From a virus: a DNA stretch of 43,910 bases. The stretch covers positions 1 to 43,910 of IMG/VR virus record IMGVR_UViG_3300011445_000036, one strand, 5' to 3'. Below, in pieces: positions 2,879 through 36,731 of this stretch. Position numbers and translations under genes: made by a program. Under the pieces are notes generated by a model. The model did no database searches. It had not been told where the DNA came from and saw only the letters and a program-made list of their open reading frames with translations. The first letter of the stretch is position 1. Every line of letters starts with the position of its first letter.

Positions 2879-4811
2879 CTGAACTCGTCCTATCTGCTTT
2901 AGAAATCTTTTCGTCTGAATCAATTTGTCTATGTTTAATTAAGATATCAGCATGGTCTTTTTCGACTTTAGCTGCTTTTTCTGTAGCATTAATATACATT
3001 TCTTTTTCACGTATATCTAGTTCACGAGATTTTAATTGTCTATCTTTATCTTTATCATCTCGATCATTAACTAATTGTTGAATCTTGATCTGTTTATCTA
3101 ATAGGGATTGTTTAGCATCTTCTGCTTTGGTTGCAGCGTCCATTTGAATTTTAATCATAGCTGGATCTGGTGCAGATTGTACAGGTTCTAATAATCTTTC
3201 AGCCCCATCTAATTGTAATTCTGTAAGTACCATTTCCGTCACAGCAGCGGGATTTAATTGTGCTTGTGGATATTGTTGTGCAAATTGTGTGATAGCTTGA
3301 ACTTTTAATAAACGTTGGGCTTCTGAACTCATATGAGGGTCAGCGACGGGTTTTACGTCTAAATTCATATCTGCATAATCATCAGCAAAGACTGCTAACT
3401 CATCGTCGAGTAATCTAAAATATTCTTCTGAATCTAAATAAAGCTTATTAATTCGAACAAGTTTTTGGAATTCTTGTTTTAATGAGATATATAATCGTTT
3501 TTGTATTGAATTATATAACTTCATGCTTTGATCTAACATTGCCATTACAGTAGTAGCGGGGACGTTTTGTGCTGGTTGATCACCAGTCATTATGTCAGAA
3601 ATTGATGCTAGTTCTTTACCAGATTGAATTAATAATTGTAGTAGTTGAAATAATACAGGCGAAGGTTCTGTAAATTTTAACTGAAAGAAATTCTTTGCTA
3701 AATCTTCCATATTACCACTATCAATAGTAGTAAATACTCCTAATTTAGCTTTGATTTGTTTGTCTTTAAGTTTTAATCCTTTTGATACAAATCCGGTAGA
3801 CGATGTTGCTAATGTACCTGCATTAACTAAAATGTTGAATACACCGTTAATGGTGCTATTAACATGGAATAATAATTGCGCTAATCCTAAATGATGGAAC
3901 CCGCCATCGGGAGCGGGTAAACAGTGATAGGCAGTAAAATACTCTACTGGTTTAATATATTTAACTTCTTTGGTCGCATCGACTGTCGTAATACCTTCTA
4001 AATCAAAGCGGGCAACGATGTTTAATACTTCTCTATTTTCTTCTAATACTGAAACTATATAAGGTTCAGCATAGGTATCTTCGTCTAAATCTAAATATCT
4101 ATGTTGTTCTAAGACCCAAAAAATAGGATCTTCATCTCCATCGTCTCCTGCTTTTCTCAATTTTTCTAAATCAATATCACAAAATATCCCTTCTCGAATC
4201 TTTTCGATGATTTCGTTACGATACATAGGATAACGATGAGTAATACGTCGTGCAGTTTTTAAAGAGCTAATTTTATCATTAACTACTATTTGATCTGGAG
4301 TACCTATGCTAAAGCCGGGTTTTCGTTCACAAGTATCATAAAATGTTTTACGAAATACTGTACCATACATAGGTATCATTAATGTCAATTTATCAGTATC
4401 TGCTAACCAAGAATCAGATTCTACTAATAATTGATAAGATAGGTGGTCAGAGAGACGTTTTGCCTTTTGTGCCTTACTACCGTCTGGATCTTTGCCTAAT
4501 ACAGTAAAGTGAGCTATTTTATTATCTCTATGGATTAAAGCCATAGATCGAGCAGCAAGAGCATTACATGCATTAGGAATCAAAGGATACTTAATATTAG
4601 CGGCTTTTTCCCAAGGCTCATTTTTTACTTCAACTGTTTGTTTAGCTATCTTTAATGCTTTATCTAAAATATCTTTCTTTTCTTTGCGCGAATCAACATC
4701 AATTTGAAATTCTTTACAAACTAATTCACCAATTCGATGTAGTTCGTCATCTTCTAATTCATGTGCAATATTAGGTAATGAATGATACTTTATTAATTTT
4801 TCAAGTGACAT
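2871..4811 (-). CDS. Portal protein
   Basis: 646 residues. The order and size fit a podovirus portal: it starts 2 bases after the large terminase stop and precedes the scaffold. The body has the typical portal mix, with an N-terminal helical wing, a segment with PWEKAANIKYPLIPNACNAL, a stem-like region (about 320-420), and a conserved-looking helix with PATTVMAMLDQSMKLYNSIQ. The C-terminal quarter (about 560-640) is a highly charged Lys/Asp/Glu/Gln coiled coil, as in the barrel of P22-like portals. The portal forms the dodecameric DNA channel and docks the terminase. Confidence 0.87.
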   Translation of the reverse strand: MSLEKLIKYHSLPNIAHELEDDELHRIGELVCKEFQIDVDSRKEKKDILDKALKIAKQTVEVKNEPWEKAANIKYPLIPNACNALAARSMALIHRDNKIAHFTVLGKDPDGSKAQKAKRLSDHLSYQLLVESDSWLADTDKLTLMIPMYGTVFRKTFYDTCERKPGFSIGTPDQIVVNDKISSLKTARRITHRYPMYRNEIIEKIREGIFCDIDLEKLRKAGDDGDEDPIFWVLEQHRYLDLDEDTYAEPYIVSVLEENREVLNIVARFDLEGITTVDATKEVKYIKPVEYFTAYHCLPAPDGGFHHLGLAQLLFHVNSTINGVFNILVNAGTLATSSTGFVSKGLKLKDKQIKAKLGVFTTIDSGNMEDLAKNFFQLKFTEPSPVLFQLLQLLIQSGKELASISDIMTGDQPAQNVPATTVMAMLDQSMKLYNSIQKRLYISLKQEFQKLVRINKLYLDSEEYFRLLDDELAVFADDYADMNLDVKPVADPHMSSEAQRLLKVQAITQFAQQYPQAQLNPAAVTEMVLTELQLDGAERLLEPVQSAPDPAMIKIQMDAATKAEDAKQSLLDKQIKIQQLVNDRDDKDKDRQLKSRELDIREKEMYINATEKAAKVEKDHADILIKHRQIDSDEKISKADRTSSDE

Positions 4812-4813
4812 TT

Positions 4814-6298
4814 CTAATAACCTGTTATAGGGTCGCGTGTATCACGAAGATTAGACATTCTTTCAGTAAATCCTTCTTCAAGTATAGGATTTGTTTCTGC
4901 AATGTTTAAACCAGAGATCACTAAATAACGCATTGCGTCCATTAAGTGGTCATGTTCTTTAACAATTTCTACTTTACCACTTGCCAACTGTTTTCTGCGG
5001 TAGATTCGCAGTTCTCCTAATGTATTAACTAAATTCTTAAAAATCTTTAGTTTTTGAGACGTCATACGTGTATAAACGAGATGAAGTCCTGTATCTACTG
5101 CATTCTTTGCAGGAGATATGTTTAACTGATATTCGCTACTATATTCATAAAATAACCGAGATCCATCTTTTTGTGAACGTCCTCGTGATGCGGGATCAAT
5201 TACTCCGGGAATCCAGTCTCCCCGTAGTTTGATATTATGCGCATGTGAGGCAGGTTCTGCTTGGCCTCTATAATATTCATCATATAAATAAAGCACGTCG
5301 GTTTCAGGATCTAATGCTCCCCAAATAGCAGCAGTCTTATTCCAACCAACATCTAAACCGAAAACTCTTGGCCACCATTCAGGAATCTTAAAAGGTTCAC
5401 AAACAATGTCTTCTTCTGCTATAGGATATACCGCACCTGCTCCTAAATAAGGTATACCATGCTTTTTTGCTTGTCTTTGATATGGGGGTATCTCTGCCTC
5501 AAGCCGTTTATAATCTTCTGGTGTAATATGTGGAACATCATCCCAACTAACCATTGAGACCCATTTAAAGCCATGAGCACCTGGTTTTACTTGTCCATCT
5601 TTGAAAAACTTTAATACTGTTTCACTTAAGCCATCATCGGGAGTAAATGTAATTAATACAATACCACCAATCTTTGCAGTACGAATAACACATTCAGTAT
5701 AAACTTCTGGAGGGCTTTCTTCGTCTAACCAGACAACGTGAATATTTGTACCTTTAAAAGCTTTTACACCTTTCTCATATGACTTAAATGAAATATGACT
5801 TGTGCCACCAGTAATATGTCGAATGTAGAAATTATCCACTCCATTTGGTGTTCCTGGCTTTGCCGTTGGTTCTCCTACAATACAATCTTTGGGAATGGTG
5901 CCTGTTCCCATATCATTTTTAGCACCGAGTAATTCTAATTGTAACACATCACGTGTTGTTTCTGCAGAGTGTCCGGCTACCCATATTTTAACTGGATGTG
6001 TAAATTTTTTACCAACCCACCAAGAAGGATACTTACCTGTAGCATGATACGCTACTTCACAAGCTCCTGCAAATGTTTTACCTGTTCTATTACCTGCCAT
6101 AAAAATTCTTTCTTGAAAATCTTTACCAGCAGTAAAAAATTCTATATGACGAGGATAAAGTTCCCTCGCATGTATAACTCCGCCTAATAGATCAATTCCA
6201 TTTTCATCAGGAAAATAATAATCTATTTTGTTATACTTTAAACGAGTTTCTTTTTCTTTTAAAAGATCAAGAAGTCGTTCTTGTTTAGTTCTTTCCAT
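4814..6298 (-). CDS. terL: Terminase large subunit (packaging ATPase and nuclease)
   Basis: 494 residues. Walker A is GNRTGKT (69-75) and Walker B is VVWLDEE (188-194). A coupling segment follows with ITFTPDDGLS. The C-terminal RNase H-like nuclease shows GLDVGWN (Asp316) and DHLMDAMRY (Asp450/Asp454). This is the complete motor-nuclease layout of TerL proteins. It pumps DNA into the procapsid through the portal encoded by the next gene and cuts the concatemer. The start at 6298 overlaps the preceding small gene by 14 bases. Confidence 0.95.
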   Translation of the reverse strand: MERTKQERLLDLLKEKETRLKYNKIDYYFPDENGIDLLGGVIHARELYPRHIEFFTAGKDFQERIFMAGNRTGKTFAGACEVAYHATGKYPSWWVGKKFTHPVKIWVAGHSAETTRDVLQLELLGAKNDMGTGTIPKDCIVGEPTAKPGTPNGVDNFYIRHITGGTSHISFKSYEKGVKAFKGTNIHVVWLDEESPPEVYTECVIRTAKIGGIVLITFTPDDGLSETVLKFFKDGQVKPGAHGFKWVSMVSWDDVPHITPEDYKRLEAEIPPYQRQAKKHGIPYLGAGAVYPIAEEDIVCEPFKIPEWWPRVFGLDVGWNKTAAIWGALDPETDVLYLYDEYYRGQAEPASHAHNIKLRGDWIPGVIDPASRGRSQKDGSRLFYEYSSEYQLNISPAKNAVDTGLHLVYTRMTSQKLKIFKNLVNTLGELRIYRRKQLASGKVEIVKEHDHLMDAMRYLVISGLNIAETNPILEEGFTERMSNLRDTRDPITGY

Positions 6299-6530
6299 CA
6301 GTGTAAATCTTTAGAATGTGATTATCGAGTTTATCTTCTAAACGTTCTAATGTTCTTGTAATCTTATCTTCTACTTTTGTTACACGTAAATCTGTATCTG
6401 CTAAATCTTTTATAATAACTTCTACCTTACTAGATAAATGAAAGAATTTAGTTAAAAACATCCATAAGGCACTTAAAGTAGCAATAGTGACTGTTATAAT
6501 ATGTGTTAAACCAAAATCTTCTATTTGCAT
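6285..6530 (-). CDS. Small membrane protein with coiled coil, possibly lysis-related
   Basis: 81 residues: one hydrophobic segment (about 10-30, HIITVTIATLSALWMFLTKFF) followed by a charged helix with heptad character (VEVIIKDLADTDLRVTKVEDKITRTLERLEDKLDNHI). The layout, a short N-terminus with one membrane helix and a coiled coil, is seen in many phage lysis accessory proteins. It lies directly after the holin. A spanin-like role is only a guess because no lipobox or partner gene is seen. Confidence 0.6.
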   Translation of the reverse strand: MQIEDFGLTHIITVTIATLSALWMFLTKFFHLSSKVEVIIKDLADTDLRVTKVEDKITRTLERLEDKLDNHILKIYTDGKN

Positions 6531-6531
6531 A

Positions 6532-6930
6532 TTATTTCCTAGTCTTCTCGAAAGTTCTATAGCCAGCTAAACCTAACATACCTAAAAGTACAGGCATTAT
6601 TTCAGTCATACTTACGATAGGTAGATTTGTTAAAGGATGACCAGTAACCATGCAAATAAATATTAACATTGGTTGTAATACAAATGTCCAAATAAATGCA
6701 GCAGCGCAAGTCCAACCGATCGCGGGTCTCCAGCCGGCTACAAATAATGATTCATGTTTAGCTTCTTCGACATTTACTTTAATTTGTTCAAGTAATGGAG
6801 CATCTTCTGCTAACCGAGCCTCAATAGCTACTCTAGCAGCTTCTAATTTATCTTTAGGACTATCAGGTAATACGCTGGAAAGAATCTTCTCAATGATACT
6901 ACCAATACCTGTAATTAATAATGGATTCAT
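6532..6930 (-). CDS. Holin of the three-TM type (Holin_3TMs)
   Basis: 132 residues. An N-terminal amphipathic part precedes the motif FVAGWRPAIGWTCAAAF (about 62-78), which is characteristic of the three-transmembrane holin family known from phages and gene transfer agents. A second membrane segment (LQPMLIFICMVTG) and a third (IMPVLLGMLGLAGY) follow. The basic C-terminus FEKTRK is usual for holins. It would form the membrane lesion that times lysis. Its ATG follows the preceding gene's stop directly (TAAATG). It is unusual in lying between the two terminase genes. Confidence 0.78.
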   Translation of the reverse strand: MNPLLITGIGSIIEKILSSVLPDSPKDKLEAARVAIEARLAEDAPLLEQIKVNVEEAKHESLFVAGWRPAIGWTCAAAFIWTFVLQPMLIFICMVTGHPLTNLPIVSMTEIMPVLLGMLGLAGYRTFEKTRK

Positions 6931-7146
6931 TTAATATCCGTATAGCCAACTAACATTTGTATTATTTCGTTTATTAATGGTAATTCGTAATCCTAGGATA
7001 GATAAATCAACGCCTTCAGGGTAAATTCGTAAATAGGTTGGAAAACTTATTCTAAAATATCCAGTACTATCATAATGAATTTCAGCTAAACTAACCAATA
7101 AAGAAAATTTACCAAGTCCTATAGCACAGTGTGGAATAATATTCAT
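6931..7146 (-). CDS. Hypothetical protein, 71 aa
   Basis: 71 residues with alternating hydrophobic and polar residues that suggest a small beta-rich domain (YFRISFPTYLRIYPEGVDLSILGLRITI). No signal peptide or catalytic motif. It is packed between its neighbours with no gap (the upstream stop ends at 7147, and the holin ATG follows at 6930), which supports it being real. Function unknown. Confidence 0.55.
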   Translation of the reverse strand: MNIIPHCAIGLGKFSLLVSLAEIHYDSTGYFRISFPTYLRIYPEGVDLSILGLRITINKRNNTNVSWLYGY

Positions 7147-7464
7147 TTAGGCTCTTTTAAAACTATTTTCTTCGACAATATATTTATTAACAAAACCTAC
7201 TCTACAAGAAATTCGGGTTTGACCTGCATGGCGTACTTTATCTAAATTCCGTCGAATAATTAAGTAACTTTCACCTAATTCGAACAAGGTACTTCCGATA
7301 CTATCAATAACTGCTTCGGTAATTAACTCATCCCATTCATCAGTATCAGGACAAATTGCACCTTTTTCAAAAGTTAAAATATCAATTTTATTACCATCTA
7401 TAATTTCATAGTGTCTATCAGAATAACCAAATACTTTAAATCCGAAATCTTCTAGTTTTTTCAT
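7147..7464 (-). CDS. Hypothetical protein, 105 aa
   Basis: 105 residues, mixed alpha/beta, acidic in the middle (DTDEWDELITEAVID) and basic at the end. Its ATG overlaps the stop of the upstream gene by one base (TAATG), so the two are translationally coupled. No known motif seen. It may be a virion or packaging accessory because it is transcribed with the terminase genes, but this is inference. Confidence 0.55.
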   Translation of the reverse strand: MKKLEDFGFKVFGYSDRHYEIIDGNKIDILTFEKGAICPDTDEWDELITEAVIDSIGSTLFELGESYLIIRRNLDKVRHAGQTRISCRVGFVNKYIVEENSFKRA

Positions 7465-7640
7465 TAAGATTTTACTTCCACAACATCATTTAATAAATCA
7501 ATAGGGTACCAGGATGGCACTTCAGCTAGTCCGTTAATAACTTTACTGGATATAACTTCTCTTTTTATTAAACCAGTAGGACTGTCAACTAAGTCTATAA
7601 AAGTCTCATAGTCTCGATTCGATTTAATATAATAAGTCAT
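7464..7640 (-). CDS. Hypothetical protein, 58 aa
   Basis: A 58-residue frame that starts at an ATG overlapping the small-terminase stop (TAATG) and ends on the start of the next gene. The sequence begins MTYYIKSNRDYETFIDLVD and includes a WYPIDLLNDVVEV segment near the C-terminus, like small phage proteins with a compact beta-alpha fold. The start/stop overlaps on both sides support it as a gene. Function unknown. Confidence 0.6.
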   Translation of the reverse strand: MTYYIKSNRDYETFIDLVDSPTGLIKREVISSKVINGLAEVPSWYPIDLLNDVVEVKS

Positions 7641-8143
7641 TATTTAACCTCTTCACTAGTGGAATCAACAATATTTAACGTTGGTTCTAAATGTCGTAAA
7701 CGTTTAATCTCATCATCTAACTGTTCTTTCGTTAGAGATGAAGTAGCATCAATGTTAATGTGTAAAGACTCACTTCTATGTTGGTATTCTTTAGGAAATC
7801 TGGATTTCATCATAAATTCTATCATTGCAGCAGAGCCTTTAATTTTGCCCGTTGCTACATCTTCAGCTATCTTTTCCCAAGTAGCCTGAGCATATATTTC
7901 TCCTAATTCATCTGCTTCTCTAAAATCTGGGTATTCTCTACAATATCTGTAATAAGTGTCTTTTACAATTCCTAACACAGCCATTACTTGTGTTTTACTT
8001 TTACCTTCCATCCGATATGATAATGCAGTATAAGCCATTTCAGGTTTATACTCTGGAGGTCTTCCTAATCGCATAGGAAATTTAGTAGGTATTATCTCTC
8101 CTTCAATACCTACTTGTGACATTTCTTTACCTACTTGTGACAT
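7640..8143 (-). CDS. Terminase small subunit (DNA recognition)
   Basis: 167 residues. After a polar N-terminus, the segment LGRPPEYKPEMAYTALSYRMEGKSKTQVMAVLGIVKDTYYRYCREYPDF contains a helix-turn-helix (SKTQVMAVLGIVKDTYYRYC), followed by ADELGEIYAQATWEKIAEDVATG, a pattern typical of phage small terminases. It would bind the packaging start site and deliver DNA to TerL. Two start codons are possible because a 16-base direct repeat duplicates ATGTCACAAGTAGGTA at residues 1 and 8. The outer ATG is used here. The SD signal is weak (AGAG). Confidence 0.75.
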   Translation of the reverse strand: MSQVGKEMSQVGIEGEIIPTKFPMRLGRPPEYKPEMAYTALSYRMEGKSKTQVMAVLGIVKDTYYRYCREYPDFREADELGEIYAQATWEKIAEDVATGKIKGSAAMIEFMMKSRFPKEYQHRSESLHINIDATSSLTKEQLDDEIKRLRHLEPTLNIVDSTSEEVK

Positions 8144-8192
8144 TGTAACTCTATATATGGTTGCGGGTAAACGATTTGCACGTTTCTGTTGT

Positions 8193-8267
8193 TGGTGGCA
8201 GCGATTGGATTTGCACCAATGACCTTCAGGTTATGAGCCTGCTAATCTACTACTGATCTACGCTGCT
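8193..8267 (-). tRNA. tRNA-Met, anticodon CAT, with encoded CCA
   Basis: Reading the minus strand gives a full cloverleaf: acceptor AGCAGCG/CGCTGCC, D-stem GATC/GATT, anticodon stem GCAGG/CCTGA around the loop CTCATAA (anticodon CAT), T-stem ATTGG/CCAAT with loop TGCAAAT, and ACCA at the end. Position 1-72 is an A-C mismatch. The anticodon stem lacks the three G-C pairs of initiators, so it is elongator Met, or Ile2 if its C34 is lysidine-modified. The T-loop reads TGC rather than the usual TTC. Its 5' end overlaps the stop of the HNH gene. Confidence 0.85.
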
Positions 8268-8596
8268 TTAATTCTGCGTTGTTGTGTAATAATACGGTGG
8301 CAATTAGCACATCTTATTTCACATTTAGCTATTTCTTCTTTAATTCGTTTTAAAGAATTACTATCCCGCACAAGAGTACTTATATCTTTTATTTTAATAC
8401 CTTTTACATGATCAAATTCTAATACTCTAATATCATTATTACCACAATCAATACATTGAGAATTTCTTAATATATTTTCTCTATATTGTTTATTTCTTAC
8501 AATAATTGCTTTATTTAAAGCTCGAACTTTATCTTTATTCTTGTAATAATATCTGTTACTAGCTTTTGCTTGATCTTTTTTATTTTTGTAAGGCAC
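8258..8596 (-). CDS. HNH homing endonuclease
   Basis: 112 residues from a GTG at 8596 preceded by AGGTG; a TTG three bases further out is the alternative. The basic N-terminus is followed by CIDCG, LEFDHVKG (the HNH-type DH pair), and CEIRCANCHRIIT, so four Cys residues form a zinc site and His/Asp/His the active site. This is the common free-standing phage HNH type. The reading frame ends in CGTAG, which is also part of the tRNA acceptor and D-arm, so gene and tRNA overlap by 10 bases. Confidence 0.88.
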   Translation of the reverse strand: MPYKNKKDQAKASNRYYYKNKDKVRALNKAIIVRNKQYRENILRNSQCIDCGNNDIRVLEFDHVKGIKIKDISTLVRDSNSLKRIKEEIAKCEIRCANCHRIITQQRRIKAA

Positions 8597-12075: not shown

Positions 12076-12103
12076 TTGACATTTCTTGTATAAGTCCTAT
12101 ACT
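12076..12103 (+). promoter_or_regulatory. Sigma-70 promoter before the proteolysis gene block
   Basis: TTGACA (12076-12081), a 16-base spacer, TATACT (12098-12103). It lies in the only gap (about 120 bases) between the tiny-gene cluster and the gene at 12142, and would transcribe the ClpX/HslU-HslV cassette. Confidence 0.68.
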
Positions 12104-12141: not shown

Positions 12142-12348
12142 ATGAGTAACATTATTCAATTCCCACCTAGATTAAGAGTTATATTGACTCAAGAATCTAA
12201 ACATCTAGATGAGGATACAATTAAATATCTCAAAGCAATGCTTAATGAAACAATTATGATTTATATGAAAACAGGGGAAGGTAAAGAATTATATGATAAA
12301 TTATGGAATATATTTTATGATGAACAGAATAATAGGAGAGTGTTATGA
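12142..12348 (+). CDS. Hypothetical protein, 68 aa
   Basis: 68 residues beginning MSNIIQFPPR, an N-terminal motif seen in many small proteobacterial and phage proteins, followed by a helical charged body. First gene after the promoter at 12076. Its stop overlaps the next start by 4 bases. Function unknown. Confidence 0.6.
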   Translation: MSNIIQFPPRLRVILTQESKHLDEDTIKYLKAMLNETIMIYMKTGEGKELYDKLWNIFYDEQNNRRVL

Positions 12349-12548
12349 GTATTAATAAGAAATTACATGTATTATATCATAAGTATTTACGATTGTCAAA
12401 AGAAGAAAAAAAAGAATATTGGCTCTTAGATGTGACTGGTGGTATACTAATAGGAGCAGGATTAGTAGCAAGTAATGGGTTTATGGTATTATGGGGAGTA
12501 ATAGTTGTTTATGTTGGTTATAGATTTTTAAATGAATCACATAAATAG
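12345..12548 (+). CDS. Small membrane protein, 67 aa
   Basis: 67 residues: a charged N-terminal half (HKYLRLSKEEKKEYW) and a hydrophobic C-terminal half that could span the membrane twice (TGGILIGAGLVASNGFMVLWGVIVVYVGYRF). Coupled to the gene before it. Function unknown. Confidence 0.55.
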   Translation: MSINKKLHVLYHKYLRLSKEEKKEYWLLDVTGGILIGAGLVASNGFMVLWGVIVVYVGYRFLNESHK

Positions 12549-12556
12549 GAGACTTT

Positions 12557-13513
12557 ATGAAATTCTTTACACCCAAACAGATTTATGAAGAATTAAATAA
12601 GTCTGTTATTGGACAACATGAAGCTAAATTATTGTTATCAAATGTTGGTATGATGATACAACAACGTTTTTATCAAAAATATCTGACATTTGGTAAACAA
12701 GTTCCAATGATTCATAAGACTGTTACTTTGTTAGCAGGCGATAGTGGTACAGGTAAAACTACTATTGTTAGAACCTTAGCTAAAATCATAAATGCACCTC
12801 TATTAGAAATTAATACCAATACGTTATCAGCAGAGGGTTGGCACGGAGAAAATCTATCTGATTTATTAAAAAAGTTTATTAAAACTAAAGCCAATCCTGA
12901 AGATTTAGCAGAAACCCCTGAAGGAACTGTTACAAGAACCATTGTATTCTTAGATGAATTTGATAAGGTTTTAATTGATTTACATGATTCAAATCAAGGT
13001 GCACATAATCGCGCTATATTAAATAACTTTCTTAAAGTTGTTGAGGATTGTTCAGCAATGGGTGATTTTAATTGGATTCTTGGCGGGTCATTTAATATTC
13101 ATAGACAAGAACTTAAAGAACCTAGTAAAACCATTGGGTTTAATAAGCTTACCGAAATGTCAGAAAAAGAATTTAATAAAGAATTCTTGATTGAAAAAGG
13201 ATTGCCTGAAGAACTTGCTGGTCGGATCACGGGTTTAGCTGAACTTAAAAAGCTTACTAAAGTTGATTTAATTAACATACTTAAATTACCATATGGCTAT
13301 ATTAATCAATATAAACAATTAGCATTACAATTTAATATGCAATTTGAAGTAACAGAGGCTTTATTAGATAGTATTGCAGATGAAGTATTAAATTCATCTC
13401 AAGGTGCAAGAGCTTTACAAGATGTAATTTATAAACATTTCGAAGTACAATTATTTAACTTGGAGTTTAAAGAAGATGAGCACAAAGAAGAGTCATACTT
13501 GCCTACTCGTTGA
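12557..13513 (+). CDS. ClpX/HslU-like AAA+ unfoldase
   Basis: 318 residues. The family start FTPKQIYEELNKSVIGQHEAK corresponds to ClpX/HslU '...VIGQ..AK'. Walker A is GDSGTGKT (61-68). The pore-loop region SAEGWHGENL corresponds to ClpX 'TEAGYVGEDV'. Walker B is IVFLDEFDKV (129-138). An arginine-finger/sensor region (ELAGRITGLAELKKLT) and sensor 2 (GARALQDVI) follow. It lacks the ClpX zinc domain and has no room for the HslU I-domain between the Walker motifs, so it is a minimal core. The next gene, overlapping by 38 bases, encodes an HslV-like peptidase, so the two likely form an ATP-dependent protease. Confidence 0.85.
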   Translation: MKFFTPKQIYEELNKSVIGQHEAKLLLSNVGMMIQQRFYQKYLTFGKQVPMIHKTVTLLAGDSGTGKTTIVRTLAKIINAPLLEINTNTLSAEGWHGENLSDLLKKFIKTKANPEDLAETPEGTVTRTIVFLDEFDKVLIDLHDSNQGAHNRAILNNFLKVVEDCSAMGDFNWILGGSFNIHRQELKEPSKTIGFNKLTEMSEKEFNKEFLIEKGLPEELAGRITGLAELKKLTKVDLINILKLPYGYINQYKQLALQFNMQFEVTEALLDSIADEVLNSSQGARALQDVIYKHFEVQLFNLEFKEDEHKEESYLPTR

Positions 13514-14105
13514 TCGTAGTCCAGCAGGCAAATTAATATTTGCTTCTGACAGACGACAAAGTTGGGGTATGCATTTAGCTCAAAAAACTCCACGTCCTAA
13601 GACTGTTAAACGTCATGGTATTGTATTTGCAGGTACAGGTGATAGTTATATTTGTGATTTAATATGTGAATTATTACCTATTCCAAAGCAAAGAAAGACT
13701 GAAAGTGCTTTTGATTTTGCGCATGGAGCATTATGGGAATCTGTTATACGATTATTAGATAAAAAAGGTTTATTAGATGAAAAACAATTTTGTTTACCAA
13801 GAGAATATAAATTTAGTGAAGCAATTATTTTAATAGGTATACAACAAACATTATTTGAATTAGAGATTTCTAAACGTGGTATATCAATGGGTATAATTGA
13901 TACTCCATATGCTCATGGGTGTGGAGGAGCATATGCTTTAGGGGCATTAATTGCATTTAAAGATTATAATTGTTTTCCACATCATATAGTGCGGTTTATT
14001 CCCCAAGAACATGAATTAATTAGTAAAATGAAATTAGCTGTACAAATTGCAGGTAACTTAAGTCCAGGTTGTGATGAGGAAGTAGACATAGTAAAAGGTG
14101 ACTAA
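13476..14105 (+). CDS. HslV/proteasome-beta-like Ntn hydrolase
   Basis: 209 residues matching the proteasome-beta/HslV pattern: TCLLVDRS at residues 8-15, then KLIFASDRRQS (Asp25 in the place of the catalytic-site Asp17), PKTVKRHGIVFAGTGD (Lys42 or Lys45 as Lys33), GCGGAYALGALIA (148-160), and KMKLAVQIAGNLSPGCDEEVDIV near the end. The best candidate for the nucleophilic Thr is Thr8, so seven residues would have to be removed. HslV normally exposes Thr after Met alone. The gene overlaps the ClpX/HslU-like gene by 38 bases, so they are probably co-translated partners. The peptidase assignment is good; activity is unproven. Confidence 0.78.
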   Translation: MSTKKSHTCLLVDRSPAGKLIFASDRRQSWGMHLAQKTPRPKTVKRHGIVFAGTGDSYICDLICELLPIPKQRKTESAFDFAHGALWESVIRLLDKKGLLDEKQFCLPREYKFSEAIILIGIQQTLFELEISKRGISMGIIDTPYAHGCGGAYALGALIAFKDYNCFPHHIVRFIPQEHELISKMKLAVQIAGNLSPGCDEEVDIVKGD

Positions 14106-14107
14106 TA

Positions 14108-14386
14108 ATGATAAAATTAACAGTAAAAAATAAGTTTTCACAAGATGAATCATGGGCAGAATTATTAAATAGTAAACAAGCCACAATCAGACAAGTAACT
14201 AATGAGAATGTTAATATATTAAATTTTAAATATTTATCTGAAACTGTAAGTAAAATGTCAAGGCATTTATTAACAATGAGTAATACGTTACAACCTAATT
14301 TAGTCTCGTTACAACACCGATTACAATTACGAGAAGCAATAGATAATTTAAAGACAGTAGAATATAACTTATCTAATAAGGAATAG
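14108..14386 (+). CDS. Hypothetical protein within the proteolysis cassette, 92 aa
   Basis: 92 residues, mostly helical and polar with an N-terminal beta-like strand (MIKLTVKNKF). It lies 2 bases after the HslV-like gene and 2 bases before the aminopeptidase gene, so it is made with them. No motif recognised. An adaptor, inhibitor or substrate-delivery role would fit the position but is conjecture. Confidence 0.6.
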   Translation: MIKLTVKNKFSQDESWAELLNSKQATIRQVTNENVNILNFKYLSETVSKMSRHLLTMSNTLQPNLVSLQHRLQLREAIDNLKTVEYNLSNKE

Positions 14387-14388
14387 GT

Positions 14389-15270
14389 ATGTTAAATAAA
14401 GGAAAACGATTTTTAAATGAATTCATTAACTTACGAGAGATAAATGTAAGTGAATTTTCATTTAAAATTAAAGAATTTTTAATTAAATATAAAGTTAACT
14501 GGAATGAAGATTGGGTCGCTGGGGGTTTATTAACAGAATTCTTTGGTTGTAGTTGGGTATTACAGATTAATCCTAATGCTACTAAACACGTTGTAATTGG
14601 AAAAGGGGTATTATATGATAGTGGTGGATATAGTTTAAAACATTCACAACATATGAAGGATATGTTTTTTGATAGAAACGGTGCATTACTAACAGTAGCT
14701 CATTGTATTAATACAGGCGATTCAGGAATTATATTTTTAGCTAATAATATGCTAAATAATCATATAGTTCCCGGAATGATTTTAAATGATATTTTTAATA
14801 AAGAAAAAGTATTAATTGATAATACAGATGCCGAAGGACGTATTGGATTAGCCCATTGTCTTGGATTGGCTAATAAATTAGGATATAAAAAGGCCTTAAC
14901 TATTGCTACGCTTACCGGAGCAGCAGTACAGGTAACATCAGAACGCGTAGCTGCATTAGTACATTCTAATGAACCCAAAGATTTAATTAAAGTAATGTCG
15001 GCACGAGTCGATAAGAAACTACAATTACATCCTGCTCCGTATAATAAAGTCTTTGATAGAGCAGTGAATTCATCTGTTATTGGGGCTACCATAACTAATT
15101 TATCTAATAGAGATGGCGCAGGATCATCTACAGCCTTTAGTTTTCTTAAACGCTTTTTTAAAGGTCATTTGATTCATTTAGATATGGCTGCAATGATGAA
15201 AACCGCAAACGGAAATGGTTTAGTATGGGGATTAAAAGAAGTTAAGTTTCTCACAAGTTTATTAAGGTAG
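14389..15270 (+). CDS. M17 leucyl aminopeptidase (PepA-like), catalytic domain only
   Basis: 293 residues with the complete M17 active site: GKGVLYDSGG (Lys72, Asp77), FFDRNGA (Asp95) and NTDAEGR (Asp147, Glu149, Arg151), then ATLTGAA and a C-terminal GAGSSTAFSFLKRFF...HLDMA segment equivalent to PepA's ligand-lining region. These residues bind the two metal ions that cleave N-terminal amino acids from peptides. The large N-terminal domain of bacterial PepA (about 170 residues) is reduced to about 65 residues. It sits behind the HslUV-like pair and could finish degradation of its peptides. PepA also binds DNA in other systems, an alternative role. Confidence 0.85.
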   Translation: MLNKGKRFLNEFINLREINVSEFSFKIKEFLIKYKVNWNEDWVAGGLLTEFFGCSWVLQINPNATKHVVIGKGVLYDSGGYSLKHSQHMKDMFFDRNGALLTVAHCINTGDSGIIFLANNMLNNHIVPGMILNDIFNKEKVLIDNTDAEGRIGLAHCLGLANKLGYKKALTIATLTGAAVQVTSERVAALVHSNEPKDLIKVMSARVDKKLQLHPAPYNKVFDRAVNSSVIGATITNLSNRDGAGSSTAFSFLKRFFKGHLIHLDMAAMMKTANGNGLVWGLKEVKFLTSLLR

Positions 15271-15273
15271 TGT

Positions 15274-15876
15274 ATGAAAGAAGAAACTAAACTATTATAT
15301 AATCAATTTATGCTCTTTGTTAAAGAGGGAGTCCATGACGTACGTTCTCGTAACCATTTCTCATGGGCTAAAAATGATTATACCGGTTTAAATTCTCGTA
15401 ATAAATACATGCAAAAATTAAAACGATTAGTGAAAATAGGTAAACTTGAAGAAGGTAAAACTCCACAAGTACAGGCTTATTTAAACGATAAAGGAAATCC
15501 CCGCCTTGAGATGCCTCCTATCTATACTTATTTTACTAAATGGGGCTATTATGCGGATTTAGCACACGAATTAATGCATTATTATCGTCAAGCTAATAAT
15601 TTAGATTTTGAAGAGAAATTATTTTATTTACTATTTTATAAAGATCGTGACTTATATGATCTCGAAGAAATTATTGCTGAATTTGGAGCTATGTTATTAT
15701 TAAAAAAAGCTAAAATTAAATTTGATAAGGAACTTAATTTTTTTTATATTGAAGAATATTTAAAACAATTTCCATCTATATGGCCTAAATCCTGGCTTAT
15801 GTATTTCTTAGTTTGGCATGCAGAACGAACTTGTAAGGAGATTCATAAATGTTATTTAACAAACAAACGATTCTAA
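15274..15876 (+). CDS. ArdC-like zincin metallopeptidase domain protein
   Basis: 200 residues. HELMH at 98-102, within YADLAHELMHYYRQ, is the HExxH zinc site, and LEEIIAEFGAMLL (about 130-142, Glu136) supplies the likely third ligand. This arrangement, preceded by an N-terminal segment with NDYTGLNSRNKYM, resembles ArdC antirestriction proteins, whose C-terminal domain is a zincin and whose N-terminal part binds single-stranded DNA. It lies 3 bases after the aminopeptidase gene. It may protect phage DNA or degrade a host defence protein. Substrate unknown. Confidence 0.68.
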   Translation: MKEETKLLYNQFMLFVKEGVHDVRSRNHFSWAKNDYTGLNSRNKYMQKLKRLVKIGKLEEGKTPQVQAYLNDKGNPRLEMPPIYTYFTKWGYYADLAHELMHYYRQANNLDFEEKLFYLLFYKDRDLYDLEEIIAEFGAMLLLKKAKIKFDKELNFFYIEEYLKQFPSIWPKSWLMYFLVWHAERTCKEIHKCYLTNKRF

Positions 15877-16160
15877 CTTATTGTTGGTATTTATGTGTTT
15901 TATTACATTATTTTGTATTTGGTTCCTTGATTTATTCTATATTTGTGCTACCCTTTACAGAGATGCCTTGGTTTGTTATAATCATTATGGAAACAGTAAT
16001 CGTAAGAATTGCATTTAGTCCTACAATATGTCCATTATCCTTATTAGAATGTAGCATAGCAAAACGAATTAATTATCCTGAATATAAATGGTTTGTAAAA
16101 CAACATGTTATACCAGAAACAAAATGGGTCTTTAATAAAATAAAGGAGAAATTATCATGA
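15849..16160 (+). CDS. Membrane protein, 103 aa
   Basis: 103 residues with two or three hydrophobic segments (about 8-33 and 38-60), then ICPLSLLECSIAKRINYPEYKW and a C-terminal IPETKWVFNKIKEKL. The CPL..LE pattern after the membrane helices faintly resembles DUF2784 proteins, but I cannot confirm it. Overlaps the zincin gene by 28 bases. Function unknown. Confidence 0.55.
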   Translation: MLFNKQTILTYCWYLCVLLHYFVFGSLIYSIFVLPFTEMPWFVIIIMETVIVRIAFSPTICPLSLLECSIAKRINYPEYKWFVKQHVIPETKWVFNKIKEKLS

Positions 16161-16348
16161 ATACCAATGAATTAGAGTTACTAGAGCTGTTATTAATTAA
16201 ATTAGATACTGCATGTTATGATGAATTTCGTAAATCTGTTGGTGATGTGACTGAAGGAATGTTAGAAAATAAATTACGAGATCGTATATCACATCTTAAA
16301 GCAGTAAGGATATTAGCTTTAGAATTTAAAAATCAATTAGGGGATTAG
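16157..16348 (+). CDS. Hypothetical protein, 63 aa
   Basis: 63 residues, acidic and helical (NELELLELLLIKLDTACYDEF). A good SD (AAAGGAGAAA) precedes the ATG, and the start overlaps the upstream stop by 4 bases. Function unknown. Confidence 0.58.
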   Translation: MNTNELELLELLLIKLDTACYDEFRKSVGDVTEGMLENKLRDRISHLKAVRILALEFKNQLGD

Positions 16349-16349
16349 A

Positions 16350-16595
16350 ATGTACGGATTGGATTGGCTTGCTACAGCTTGTGGATGGACAGCTTGTTAT
16401 CTTATCAGTAAGAAACGACATTTATTATTTGCTTGGGGATTATGGACATTAGTTACGTTAATATGGATTAGTATAGGTGTACATCAACATATATGGGGAA
16501 TGGTTGCGAGTCAAGCTGGATATTTCTTTATTGATGGTTGGGCATTTATTAAAGAATTTAAAAAACAAAAGGAGAAATCTAAATGCGTAAAGTAG
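16350..16595 (+). CDS. Membrane protein, 81 aa
   Basis: 81 residues with two to three hydrophobic helices (LATACGWTACYLIS, LLFAWGLWTLVTLIWISIGV, IWGMVASQAGYFFIDGWAF) and a basic tail (KEFKKQKEKSK). Only one base separates it from the previous stop. It looks like a small inner membrane protein. Function unknown. Confidence 0.58.
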   Translation: MYGLDWLATACGWTACYLISKKRHLLFAWGLWTLVTLIWISIGVHQHIWGMVASQAGYFFIDGWAFIKEFKKQKEKSKCVK

Positions 16596-16777
16596 AGTTA
16601 TTTAAACGAGCTATTAAATTTCATAATGATCATAAAGATGTTATAATGGTTTATAAATATAATAATACTTATGTAGTTTCTACGCGTATTAATAATCAAG
16701 TTAAAAGACAATTTAGTAATATATTACATAATGCAACTCAAATGTTTTTAATTGAAAAATATCGTTATTTTAATTAG
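16583..16777 (+). CDS. Hypothetical protein, 64 aa
   Basis: 64 residues, basic, mixed helix and strand (VIMVYKYNNTYVVSTRI). Overlaps the upstream gene by 13 bases, with AAAGGAGAAA as ribosome site. Function unknown. Confidence 0.55.
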   Translation: MRKVELFKRAIKFHNDHKDVIMVYKYNNTYVVSTRINNQVKRQFSNILHNATQMFLIEKYRYFN

Positions 16778-26805: not shown

Positions 26806-27546
26806 ATGTTAATTAAATCAGGATTACCATGTCCGAATTGTACTTCATCCGATGCTTTGGCTAAGTATGAAAATGGTACTTATTGTTTCTCTTGTAAATA
26901 CTCTACATTAGAAATTATTAAAACATTAAAAAATCAGAATCAAGAGAATTTAACATTAACACCCAACCAAGCCGACTGGGTTTCTTTAGATTCACATAAA
27001 CATATTTCTGCCTATACGTTCTTAAAATCTTATCATATAAATCAACAACTTATCGATAAATACCAACTCATGTGGTCTCCTCAGACGAATCGATTAGTAT
27101 TGCCGTTTATTTATAAAACTAAATGTGTAGGGGGACAATTACGTTCACTCGACAAACGTCCCATGAGAAAATATTTAAATGTTGGAGATACCGGAATATG
27201 GAATCCTAATAACTTATTAGCGACTATAGTCGCTAACTGGGCAATGACGACTATAGTCGTCGTAGAAGATATTATCTCTGCTATACGAATTAATGAAATC
27301 TTACCAGCCGTTGCTTTATGCGGCACTAAAACAGATAATTCTACTAAGGAAACCTTAAGGAAACTAGGTAAAACAATTATTTTATGGTTAGATTCTGATA
27401 TTCCGGGACAAAATGCTTGCAAAAAGTTAAAATGTAGTTTACAATTAACTAATGATGTAAAAGTAATAAAAACTGAATTAGATCCGAAATGTTATAAAAA
27501 GGCAGATTTAGAATCTTATTTAATTGCTGCTACTGTAGGTAAATAA
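26806..27546 (+). CDS. DNA primase, zinc-binding plus Toprim domain
   Basis: 246 residues. The zinc-binding domain has CPNC (9-12) and CFSC (27-30), like T7 gp4 primase. The Toprim core has VVVEDIISAIR (Glu154) and ILWLDSDIPGQ (Asp196, Asp198). The middle segment RLVLPFIYKTKCVGGQLRSLD is the typical RNA polymerase-type strand pair. It would make primers for the DnaB-like helicase/PolA replisome. It sits between the yeaH and spoVR homologues and overlaps spoVR by one base. Confidence 0.87.
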   Translation: MLIKSGLPCPNCTSSDALAKYENGTYCFSCKYSTLEIIKTLKNQNQENLTLTPNQADWVSLDSHKHISAYTFLKSYHINQQLIDKYQLMWSPQTNRLVLPFIYKTKCVGGQLRSLDKRPMRKYLNVGDTGIWNPNNLLATIVANWAMTTIVVVEDIISAIRINEILPAVALCGTKTDNSTKETLRKLGKTIILWLDSDIPGQNACKKLKCSLQLTNDVKVIKTELDPKCYKKADLESYLIAATVGK

Positions 27547-34142: not shown

Positions 34143-34799
34143 ATGAGTCTATCGAAATGGGTATTGCCTATTGCTGCTATTATCTTAGGTCTAGTATTAA
34201 TCTCTGGGCGTATTGATATTAATTTACAGCATAACCTTCATTTACCTAAACAAATGGTAAATGAGCCTATTATTGAAACTCATATGGGCGTATTCGGTAT
34301 TGCGAATATCTATGATGTATATATACCGGTAGTATTTAATCATGAAATGAGTCTCGTTAGTATCAAACAATTAGTCAATAATGCCTCGGTTTTAGATACT
34401 GTTCGATTTCATATTGCGGGAGACGGTGGCGGTGTTGATATGGTATTAGGTCTTATTAATACTGTGAAAGCTACGAAAGCCCATACTGTTATGATTGTAG
34501 AACGTCCTAGTTATTCTGGAGCTGCTTTCTTGGCTGTATCAGGTGATGAATTAATCATGAGACCTTTTACATATTTAATGTTTCATACTAGTAGCGCAAT
34601 GAATGTTAATTGTGCGGATCAAAAAGGAATGGATCGAGCAGAAACAGCAGACGCTGTCTGTAAAAAAATGATTTCTAATCATATGTGGAACTTAGAAAAG
34701 TTAATTGATTCTTTTATTAAAGTATCTGCTGAAGAAAAGGCGGCCATTAAAGCAGGATTTACAGTTGTTATTCCTGCTGAAGTATTAGATAAACGCTAG
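34143..34799 (+). CDS. Membrane-anchored ClpP-fold (SppA/ClpP-like) protein
   Basis: 218 residues. One N-terminal membrane helix (6-21) is followed by a ClpP/crotonase-type domain: VRFHIAGDGGGVDMVLGLINTVKATKAHTVMIVE, then RPSYSGAAFLAVSGDELIMRP (Ser125 in the nucleophile position) and YLMFHTSS (His148 in the catalytic His position). The domain would be periplasmic. A membrane-linked serine peptidase cutting envelope proteins or signal-peptide remnants is one reading. A similar protein is encoded on the opposite strand at 36222. The acidic member of the triad is not obvious. Confidence 0.7.
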   Translation: MSLSKWVLPIAAIILGLVLISGRIDINLQHNLHLPKQMVNEPIIETHMGVFGIANIYDVYIPVVFNHEMSLVSIKQLVNNASVLDTVRFHIAGDGGGVDMVLGLINTVKATKAHTVMIVERPSYSGAAFLAVSGDELIMRPFTYLMFHTSSAMNVNCADQKGMDRAETADAVCKKMISNHMWNLEKLIDSFIKVSAEEKAAIKAGFTVVIPAEVLDKR

Positions 34800-35416: not shown

Positions 35417-36235
35417 GTGTGGGTACTTCTGCTCATTGGTTCTATTATTATAGAAGTTGGACTAACCTGCCTAATACCTCACTCTAAGGGGTATTTCTTT
35501 AATCTTATCGAAGCCCATAATTCCACCCTTATTTGGATAGGATTAGCTTATTATTTCGGTAATATCTTCGTTTTAGAGCTATTTCAGACCTTTAAACCTT
35601 ATTCAATTATACGATATGCCTTAGAACGCCGTTTAAAGCTCACCACGACGTTTAATTCTATACCCCCTACCTACACCTCTATTAGTAACTTTGCGCAGCG
35701 TATACAAGAGGATATTAAGCTTTATTTACAGAATAGTATCTCCGTCTATACAGAATATGCTATTTCGGGGTTAATTGTAGTCTATCTATTAATAACTCAT
35801 CATACTGAGTATATTCTTATAGGATCAGCTATCCTATATAGTCTACTCTTTGTGGCCATTGCCTATCTGTTTAAACCACGACTCGTCAAGACTGAAAAGA
35901 CTATGCAACAGAATGAAGCACAATTTAGATTAGATATTAATAACCTAGGATTTGGATTATTACCTGAAGTTCTTTTGAGCAATAAAAAAGCCGCTAATGT
36001 GCGGCTATCATATGGTATTTTTAATAAAACTCAAACAGCTATAATGTTGGCTTTACCTTATATCGTATTACTACCTTTCTACCTTAAGAGTACGATTACT
36101 TTAGGTTATTTGATGGAAATTGCCACAGTGTTTGATTTGTTAGTATTAAATATGGCGATTATTATTAATCTATTTCCTTTCCTAGCACAGGCTAAGGCTT
36201 CTAAAGAACGTATTGATGAGCTTAATCATAAGTAA
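35417..36235 (+). CDS. SbmA/BacA-like transporter-fold membrane protein
   Basis: 272 residues from a GTG start with GGGAG upstream. Several hydrophobic helices. Between them are NFAQRIQEDIKLYLQNS (the 'QRIQED' signature of SbmA/BacA and related ABC transmembrane domains) and EKTMQQNEAQFRLDINNLG (like the 'E..FR..L' coupling helix). The C-terminus reads LPFYLKSTITLGYLMEIATVFDLL...AQAKASKERIDEL, similar in layout to SbmA. There is no ATP-binding domain here or next door, as expected for SbmA. SbmA imports antimicrobial peptides. The phage role is unknown. The gene overlaps the convergent ClpP-like gene by 14 bases. Confidence 0.55.
   Translation: MWVLLLIGSIIIEVGLTCLIPHSKGYFFNLIEAHNSTLIWIGLAYYFGNIFVLELFQTFKPYSIIRYALERRLKLTTTFNSIPPTYTSISNFAQRIQEDIKLYLQNSISVYTEYAISGLIVVYLLITHHTEYILIGSAILYSLLFVAIAYLFKPRLVKTEKTMQQNEAQFRLDINNLGFGLLPEVLLSNKKAANVRLSYGIFNKTQTAIMLALPYIVLLPFYLKSTITLGYLMEIATVFDLLVLNMAIIINLFPFLAQAKASKERIDELNHK
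35981..36006 (-). terminator. Rho-independent terminator of the right-hand late operon
   Basis: The minus strand reads AGCCGC-ACATTA-GCGGCT followed by TTTTTTATT: a perfect 6-bp GC-rich stem, 6-base loop and U-run. It lies antisense inside the SbmA-like gene, about 215 bases past the end of the last minus-strand gene (36222). Confidence 0.85.
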
Positions 36236-36731
36236 CGTATACGTCTTCTCCTGCTAAGACATGATCCCAAATATATTGATCGACATAATCTCCACAGTAG
36301 CGTAAAAAGGCTTTGGTATCGTCTATATACGCTGCTCCAGTAAAGCTATCTCTAATCATATGAAACATCATGAATGCACCTGGTCTCATAATCCACTTAT
36401 CCGCTGAACAAGCGGCAATTGCATGCATACTATAATTTCCATCTTTTAATATAAATATAACTTGTTTATGTCCCTGAGCTTTAAAATTTTCAACTGAATC
36501 TATAAATGTTCTGCCCATGCTGACTAATCCGCCAGTACCAGTACTATATATTGTTAGTTGTTTCGCCTTACATACATTGATAGCATGAATCACAGCATCC
36601 CATTCAGGACTATAATTACGTTGGAATTTAGTCGGTAAAGTGAGATTACAGGCAGAGGTATTAGCTGAGGCCACAGTACCTGCCAATAATAGACCTATAA
36701 AAAGTAAAATACTAAAAACGATTGCTTTCAT
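36222..36731 (-). CDS. Secreted ClpP-fold protein
   Basis: 169 residues. A signal peptide (KAIVFSILLFIGLLLAGTVASA) with a likely cleavage after Ala24. The mature domain has LTIYSTGTGGLVSMGRTFIDSV, then KDGNYSMHAIAACSADKWIMRP (Ser101 at the ClpP nucleophile position) and FMMFHMIRDS (His124). This matches the layout of the protein at 34143, so both are ClpP/SppA-type folds sent to the envelope. It is the last gene of the minus-strand late operon and may act with virion entry or lysis. Confidence 0.68.
   Translation of the reverse strand: MKAIVFSILLFIGLLLAGTVASANTSACNLTLPTKFQRNYSPEWDAVIHAINVCKAKQLTIYSTGTGGLVSMGRTFIDSVENFKAQGHKQVIFILKDGNYSMHAIAACSADKWIMRPGAFMMFHMIRDSFTGAAYIDDTKAFLRYCGDYVDQYIWDHVLAGEDVYVTYD

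Follow-up and report, generated by a model that had tools for sequence, protein, structure and literature searches.

Does a phage unfoldase of ClpX type, encoded without a true ClpP, work with a peptidase of another family? The question is raised by four protease-related genes at positions 12557-15876 of the IMG/VR virus record IMGVR_UViG_3300011445_000036, a complete contig of 43,910 bp that was analyzed over its whole length and is called the window here. In cells, the AAA+ proteases come as fixed pairings (ClpX-ClpP, HslU-HslV and Mpa/PAN-20S), and we know of no cellular pairing of ClpX with a proteasome-type peptidase. The first two genes of the locus overlap by 38 bp and code for a ClpX-type motor and a peptidase of predicted proteasome fold, and genes for the same two proteins recur close to each other in other phages without a true ClpP. 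The reading that we tentatively prefer is that motor and peptidase would form an ATP-dependent protease, with the M17 aminopeptidase encoded downstream finishing the digestion. The four genes, which like all the open reading frames of the original prediction were recovered at the same coordinates, are the following:

12557..13513, + strand: ClpX-type single-domain AAA+ unfoldase, 318 amino acids (profile matches, motifs and predicted fold)
13476..14105, + strand: proteasome/HslV-fold N-terminal nucleophile (Ntn) hydrolase peptidase, 209 amino acids, predicted nucleophile Thr8, with Asp25 and Lys42 (phrog_1040, AlphaFold and alignment)
14389..15270, + strand: M17 (leucyl aminopeptidase type) catalytic domain, 293 amino acids (PF00883, 1e-35)
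15274..15876, + strand: ArdC/MPTase-PolyVal zincin-like metallopeptidase, 200 amino acids, HELMH ... EEIIAE (PF18818, 5.3e-10; phrog_7245)

Identity of the four enzymes

The first two genes had been described in the original prediction as an HslUV-like pair. The motor matches the profiles PF00004 (1e-13), ClpX PRK05342 (1e-32) and HslU (8e-19), and carries a Walker A motif (GDSGTGKT), a Walker B motif (IVFLDEFDK), a pore-1 loop (GWHG) and a sensor-2 motif (GAR). At the position of the IGF loop, with which ClpX engages hydrophobic sites on ClpP (PMC9035409), it has the sequence SKTIGFN, and E. coli HslU has a gap there. HslU docks on HslV through its C-terminal tail (PMC4106860); the motor ends in EESYLPTR as against DLSRFIL in HslU, and the docking tail is absent. 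The HslU score was 68 bits for a cut-off of 362, with the I domain of HslU also missing. The ClpX equivalog score (114 bits) was likewise below its cut-off of 359, and the chain begins at the AAA+ module, the N-terminal zinc-binding domain of ClpX being absent; an AAA+ module with Walker A/B, a sensor-2 Arg and an IGF loop, as expected of a ClpX, are all present. The 50 best PDB fold matches of the AlphaFold model (predicted local distance difference test score, pLDDT, 78) were all ClpX. Because the IGF loop is kept, the HslU docking tail is missing and the fold matches are all to ClpX, the motor is ClpX-type and not HslU-type; the HslUV-like description thus stood for the peptidase, which is HslV/BPH-like, and had to be given up for the motor.

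Since the IGF loop is preserved, a serious rival to our reading, and the main one, is that the motor docks by this loop on the ClpP of the host and redirects it to new substrates, the peptidase working alone, as proposed for BPH, or with host HslU; the two would be neighbours and not one machine. Besides the window, nearly every phage ClpX-like protein has an IGF-type loop (49 IGF, 12 MGF, 9 LGF, 6 FGF and 3 VGF, together 79 of 92 aligned rows, which include E. coli ClpX and a small number of duplicate loci), and G194 and F195 of the loop are among the 30 invariant columns of a ten-sequence alignment. The gap in HslU points in the same direction, as does the disorder of region 184-206 in the model, which a flexible docking loop would show. 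Moreover, motor-less phages with proteasome-like peptidases exist, and BPH is without a known unfoldase according to Fuchs et al. (2021; PMC8665760). Against this, the two genes overlap in the window and lie close in divergent phages, and the loop could persist after a change of partner. We consider docking on host ClpP somewhat less probable than the preferred reading.

The peptidase had no match in Pfam (PF00227 included) or NCBIfam and no sequence match in the PDB. It does match phrog_1040, 'peptidase HslV family', at 4e-14, a profile that, as the HslV/proteasome superfamily would predict, also matches genes in nine of 14 control genomes, including those of E. coli, B. subtilis and archaea. 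An AlphaFold model built from five phage sequences (pLDDT 84, predicted template modelling score 0.83) was compared with Foldseek, and the best PDB matches were HslV (E=2e-9) and the bacterial proteasome homolog BPH (template modelling score 0.64), followed by Anbu and 20S beta subunits. Thr8, Asp25 and Lys42, which do not vary among the five phage peptidases, stand opposite Thr1, Asp17 and Lys33 of E. coli HslV in the alignment. The assignment of this gene to the Ntn hydrolases was therefore upheld, the predicted fold being of the proteasome beta type (alpha-beta-beta-alpha) with the Thr, Asp and Lys positions kept.

The residues ahead of the nucleophile differ among the phages. The peptidases of two relatives, L019 and L024, start with MTC, and removal of the Met would therefore expose the Thr. 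An extension precedes the Thr in the window (MSTKKSH, seven residues, with no alternative start codon), in L108 (MTKHRLKSH) and in L002 (MRRSN); the peptidase of B. subtilis CodWX, an enzyme that works with an N-terminal Ser, likewise has a short extension ahead of its Thr. These extensions of 5-9 residues, with a Cys next to the Thr, together with GCGG in place of the GSGG of HslV, would also suit a dedicated processing or ligating enzyme acting on a few specific phage or host proteins, with the motor serving as a chaperone for the remodelling of phage proteins; non-proteases such as connectase also belong to the superfamily (PMC8665760). The retention of Thr, Asp and Lys together and the MTC start of L019 and L024 argue against such a role, which we judge unlikely.

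The third gene had been credited with all the metal ligands of an M17 aminopeptidase, and this was borne out: the ligands K72, D77, D95, D147 and E149 and the catalytic K84 and R151 are all present and are kept in a phage relative. Only 60 residues stand ahead of the catalytic domain, the usual N-terminal M17 domain is absent, and the matches to solved structures begin at about chain position 190 or later. A short M17 is also found in L116, where it lies near a peptide deformylase and a methionine-aminopeptidase-like gene, both named by sequence resemblance only (the three genes within 3657-8408). For the fourth gene the zincin class was retained as well, with 39.9 bits for PF18818 (cut-off 27.5) and the HExxH motif of an MPTase-PolyVal domain in the form HELMH; there was no Pfam match beyond residues 68-165, and the N-terminal single-stranded DNA-binding domain of ArdC was not found.

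Recurrence of the genes in other phages

IMG/VR was scanned with an AAA+ alignment, and 80 of the 165 contigs found were retained. Single-sequence IMG/VR scans with the peptidase or the M17 enzyme gave no relatives and a two-row alignment (A1) only an already-known one; the relatives came from the AAA+ scan and from alignment A5. No prophage or host copy was seen in a GTDB genome scan, and a tblastn search of the peptidase against INPHARED returned nothing at E<0.01, the best hit being a 40%-identity fragment in ct2KA10 (E=0.06). The close relatives are all metagenomic contigs and often partial, so that absences in them are weak evidence, and both the E-values of searches in single genomes and the Fisher counts should be read as approximate.

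The nearest AAA+ relatives of the window, at 30% identity, are L002, L019/L020 and L024, and in each of them an HslV-like gene lies on the same strand about 1.6-3 kb from the motor gene. Within the AAA+ group of the window an HslV-like gene is present in 3 of 5 records, as against 4 of 76 other records, L069 among them (Fisher p=0.004, on records of very unequal completeness). This label was clustered on the AAA+ tree, with only 2 of 500 shuffles as low, and the group of the window, L019, L002, L003 and L004 had a support of 100/97. In the more distant phage L069 a proteasome-like gene (3864-4382) lies about 0.7 kb from a ClpX-like gene (5052-6425), and the record holds two peptidase genes.

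An M17 gene was found in two of 50 records. One of these is L020/L106 (G011/L106), which on the AAA+ tree has the shortest path to the window; its M17 is of the same short type and 42% identical, and the gene lies 5.6 kb upstream of that for the peptidase. Eight relatives were searched for the zincin, and none had it. The claim that the four genes stay together thus held in part: motor and peptidase are close in three other lineages and M17 accompanies them in one, and the zincin does so in none. Given this distribution, conservation extends to motor and peptidase, which M17 occasionally joins, and not to the cassette of four genes.

True ClpP shows another distribution. In a PF00574 search of 50 records, the window not among them, 12 matched, ten as strong ClpP and L002 and L024 weakly; a true ClpP (E of 5e-65 or lower) is present in nine records, and several more distant phages with ClpX-like proteins thus carry true ClpP instead of the proteasome-like peptidase. 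The window, L002 and L024 are without a true ClpP and have only weak or membrane-anchored ClpP/SppA-like proteins. In the window these are two, one with a sub-threshold PF00574 match and the other without any, whose genes converge around that of a membrane protein:

34143-34799, + strand: ClpP/SppA-like protein with a hydrophobic N-terminus, closest to NfeD1b/ClpP-like domains with weak scores
35417-36235, + strand: SbmA/BacA or ABC-membrane-2 type transmembrane protein, 272 amino acids, without an ATPase domain
36222-36731, - strand: ClpP/SppA-like protein with a hydrophobic N-terminus, weak similarity

Similar neighbours are found in L024 and L106, and relatives of the SbmA/BacA-like protein, 30-39% identical, in L002, L106 and L024. 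We also considered the 34143-34799 protein as a partner of the motor and put this low, on account of its hydrophobic N-terminal segment and weak NfeD1b/ClpP-like match. Judging by this segment and by its closest match, the protein is probably membrane-anchored, and it may act outside the cytosol.

The four genes had been pictured as a cassette lying side by side behind its own sigma-70 promoter. Their arrangement was confirmed, with successive gaps of -38, 2, 2, 3 and -28 bases from the motor gene on and a plausible ribosome-binding sequence upstream of each gene. Four further features belong to this stretch:

12076..12103, + strand: sigma-70-like promoter, TTGACA-16-TATACT, 11/12 consensus match, in the 121-bp gap heading the operon
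12142..12348, + strand: small open reading frame, 68 amino acids, first gene behind the promoter-like site, no PHROG match
12345..12548, + strand: small open reading frame, 67 amino acids, with a hydrophobic stretch, no PHROG match
14108..14386, + strand: 92-amino-acid protein, no relative found

From 12142 the genes follow one another with no sizeable gap up to 18474, where the helicase gene ends, and the four protease-related genes are therefore part of a longer early operon and not a separate cassette. Since the small genes at 12142 and 12345 intervene and the operon runs to 18474, the site at 12076-12103 is not a private promoter of the protease genes. It is a consensus match only, though a good one, in the only sizeable upstream gap, and an equally good match is expected in 0.6% of 121-bp stretches; across the region promoter-like sites are not above chance (69 found, 66.7 expected). 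The 92-amino-acid protein had been proposed as an adaptor, an idea that we dropped, no relative or supporting evidence having been found.

The continuity of the operon to the helicase gene, the lack of the zincin in the relatives searched and the short M17 of L116, which has neither motor nor HslV-like peptidase, would fit a loose set of separately acquired auxiliary genes with no shared pathway, their closeness reflecting compact early operons. The co-occurrence of motor and peptidase is, however, non-random on the tree, and M17 accompanies them in the relative that is closest by path on the AAA+ tree, which makes such a loose set improbable.

Candidate mechanism

In the ATP-dependent protease that we tentatively prefer, a hexamer of the motor would unfold selected proteins using ATP and thread them, via a pore loop in which Trp replaces Tyr (GWHG), into a ring of the co-encoded peptidase physically associated with it. 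The peptidase would cut with its N-terminal Thr/Asp/Lys center, and the M17 aminopeptidase would trim the released peptides to amino acids. The zincin would be a neighbour particular to this lineage, with a defence protein or a host protein as its possible target. The protease might be directed at regulatory or defence proteins of the host, or might degrade host protein in bulk to supply amino acids.

Several observations weigh against this assembly. The loop that docks on ClpP is kept (IGF, LGF or MGF) in the motors of the window, L019, L002, L003, L004 and L024, and HslU has no such loop, its docking element being a C-terminal tail, which is missing from these motors. The seven-residue extension ahead of Thr8 would need to be removed from the window peptidase. 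The order of the motor and peptidase genes differs among the relatives, and the AAA+ tree has long branches, so that some joins may be false. L108 (46 kb), whose peptidase is 41% identical, has no detectable motor, and a peptidase but no motor was found in VpV262 (whole genome) and in Vibrio phage phi 3 (first 50 kb); conversely, the motor occurs without the peptidase in L004 and in L003, a fragment of 6.6 kb. Finally, since early phage genes cluster anyway, proximity is weaker evidence in a phage than in a bacterial chromosome.

A more specific form of the preferred reading, possible in our view and held with some doubt, is a chimeric phage protease in which an unfoldase of the ClpX lineage has been re-partnered with a proteasome-type threonine peptidase, the loop that once docked on ClpP now contacting the ring of proteasome-like subunits, and digestion to amino acids being completed by a dedicated M17 enzyme. 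A ClpX-type motor beside a proteasome-type peptidase, with no ClpP of its own, offers a test of whether the pairings of AAA+ proteases can be swapped and of which docking element sets their specificity. With this pair there is a concrete candidate for protein degradation directed by the phage during infection, and its recurrence in distantly related phages suggests that they carry a protein-degrading machine of their own into the host cell.

Genomic setting and known systems

The other genes of the window include those for a PolA-type DNA polymerase, a DnaB-type helicase, a primase, an exonuclease, a terminase and a portal. Replication genes lie on one strand and virion genes on the opposite one, as in Vibrio phage VpV262 (Zobellviridae), and the nearest polymerases of named phages are only about 35% identical. 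Between 22962 and 29066 (+ strand) there is a complete set of PrkA/YeaG kinase (941 bits, cut-off 576), YeaH/DUF444 and SpoVR/YcgB, in which a primase gene (26806-27546) separates YeaH from SpoVR; L108 has this trio too (13111-16617). A GroES-like co-chaperonin (2336-2659, - strand; Cpn10, 2.6e-8) adjoins the portal gene in the virion gene block, and an 81-amino-acid protein (16350-16595, + strand) has a weak match to the nicotinamide mononucleotide transporter PnuC (PF04973, 2.4e-4) and is possibly a fragment.

Compared with cellular enzymes, the motor shares with ClpX the fold, the Walker motifs, the sensor-2 GAR, the small C-terminal domain and the IGF docking loop, and differs in being about 28% identical to E. 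coli ClpX, in lacking the zinc-binding domain, in its shorter C-terminus and in having GWHG where ClpX has GYVG. The peptidase shares with HslV (ClpQ) of HslUV and with BPH the proteasome beta fold, the equivalents of Thr1, Asp17 and Lys33 and a G-x-G-G motif; it is less than 20% identical to them, longer, extended at the N-terminus and has GCGG instead of GSGG, and, unlike the case of HslV, the adjoining motor is of ClpX type and not HslU. The M17 enzyme retains the complete set of five metal ligands and both catalytic residues (Lys and Arg) of leucyl aminopeptidases, from which it differs as a phage short form, reduced to the catalytic domain, that is common to L106 and L116.

Phage proteasome homologs and phage ClpX-like proteins are already known; the novelty lies in their repeated pairing in phages that lack a true ClpP, a combination of which we found no description in the open-access literature, although an earlier one is possible. 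Fuchs et al. (2021; PMC8665760) described the phage proteasome homologs PPH (about 140 residues), AAH and CPH, which like the window peptidase are proteasome-like proteins of tailed phages; PPH, likened here by its published description only, is shorter than the 209 amino acids of the window protein. More than 20 similar predicted phage proteins are present in the BFVD structure library, and an HslV without HslU has been reported from a Salmonella jumbo phage (PMC7823757). ORF47 of VpV262 is labelled 'peptidase HslV family', as phrog_1040 is, in a genome in which no ClpX-type motor was found. The motor described here is a possible partner for such phage proteasome homologs. Phage ClpX-like proteins are common (262 records), and those of Bacillus phage G (gp258) and PA5oct (ClpX) have the same single AAA+ module and are 24-29% identical to the motor; several phages with such proteins also encode a true ClpP, whereas the window and its nearest relatives encode a proteasome-like peptidase.

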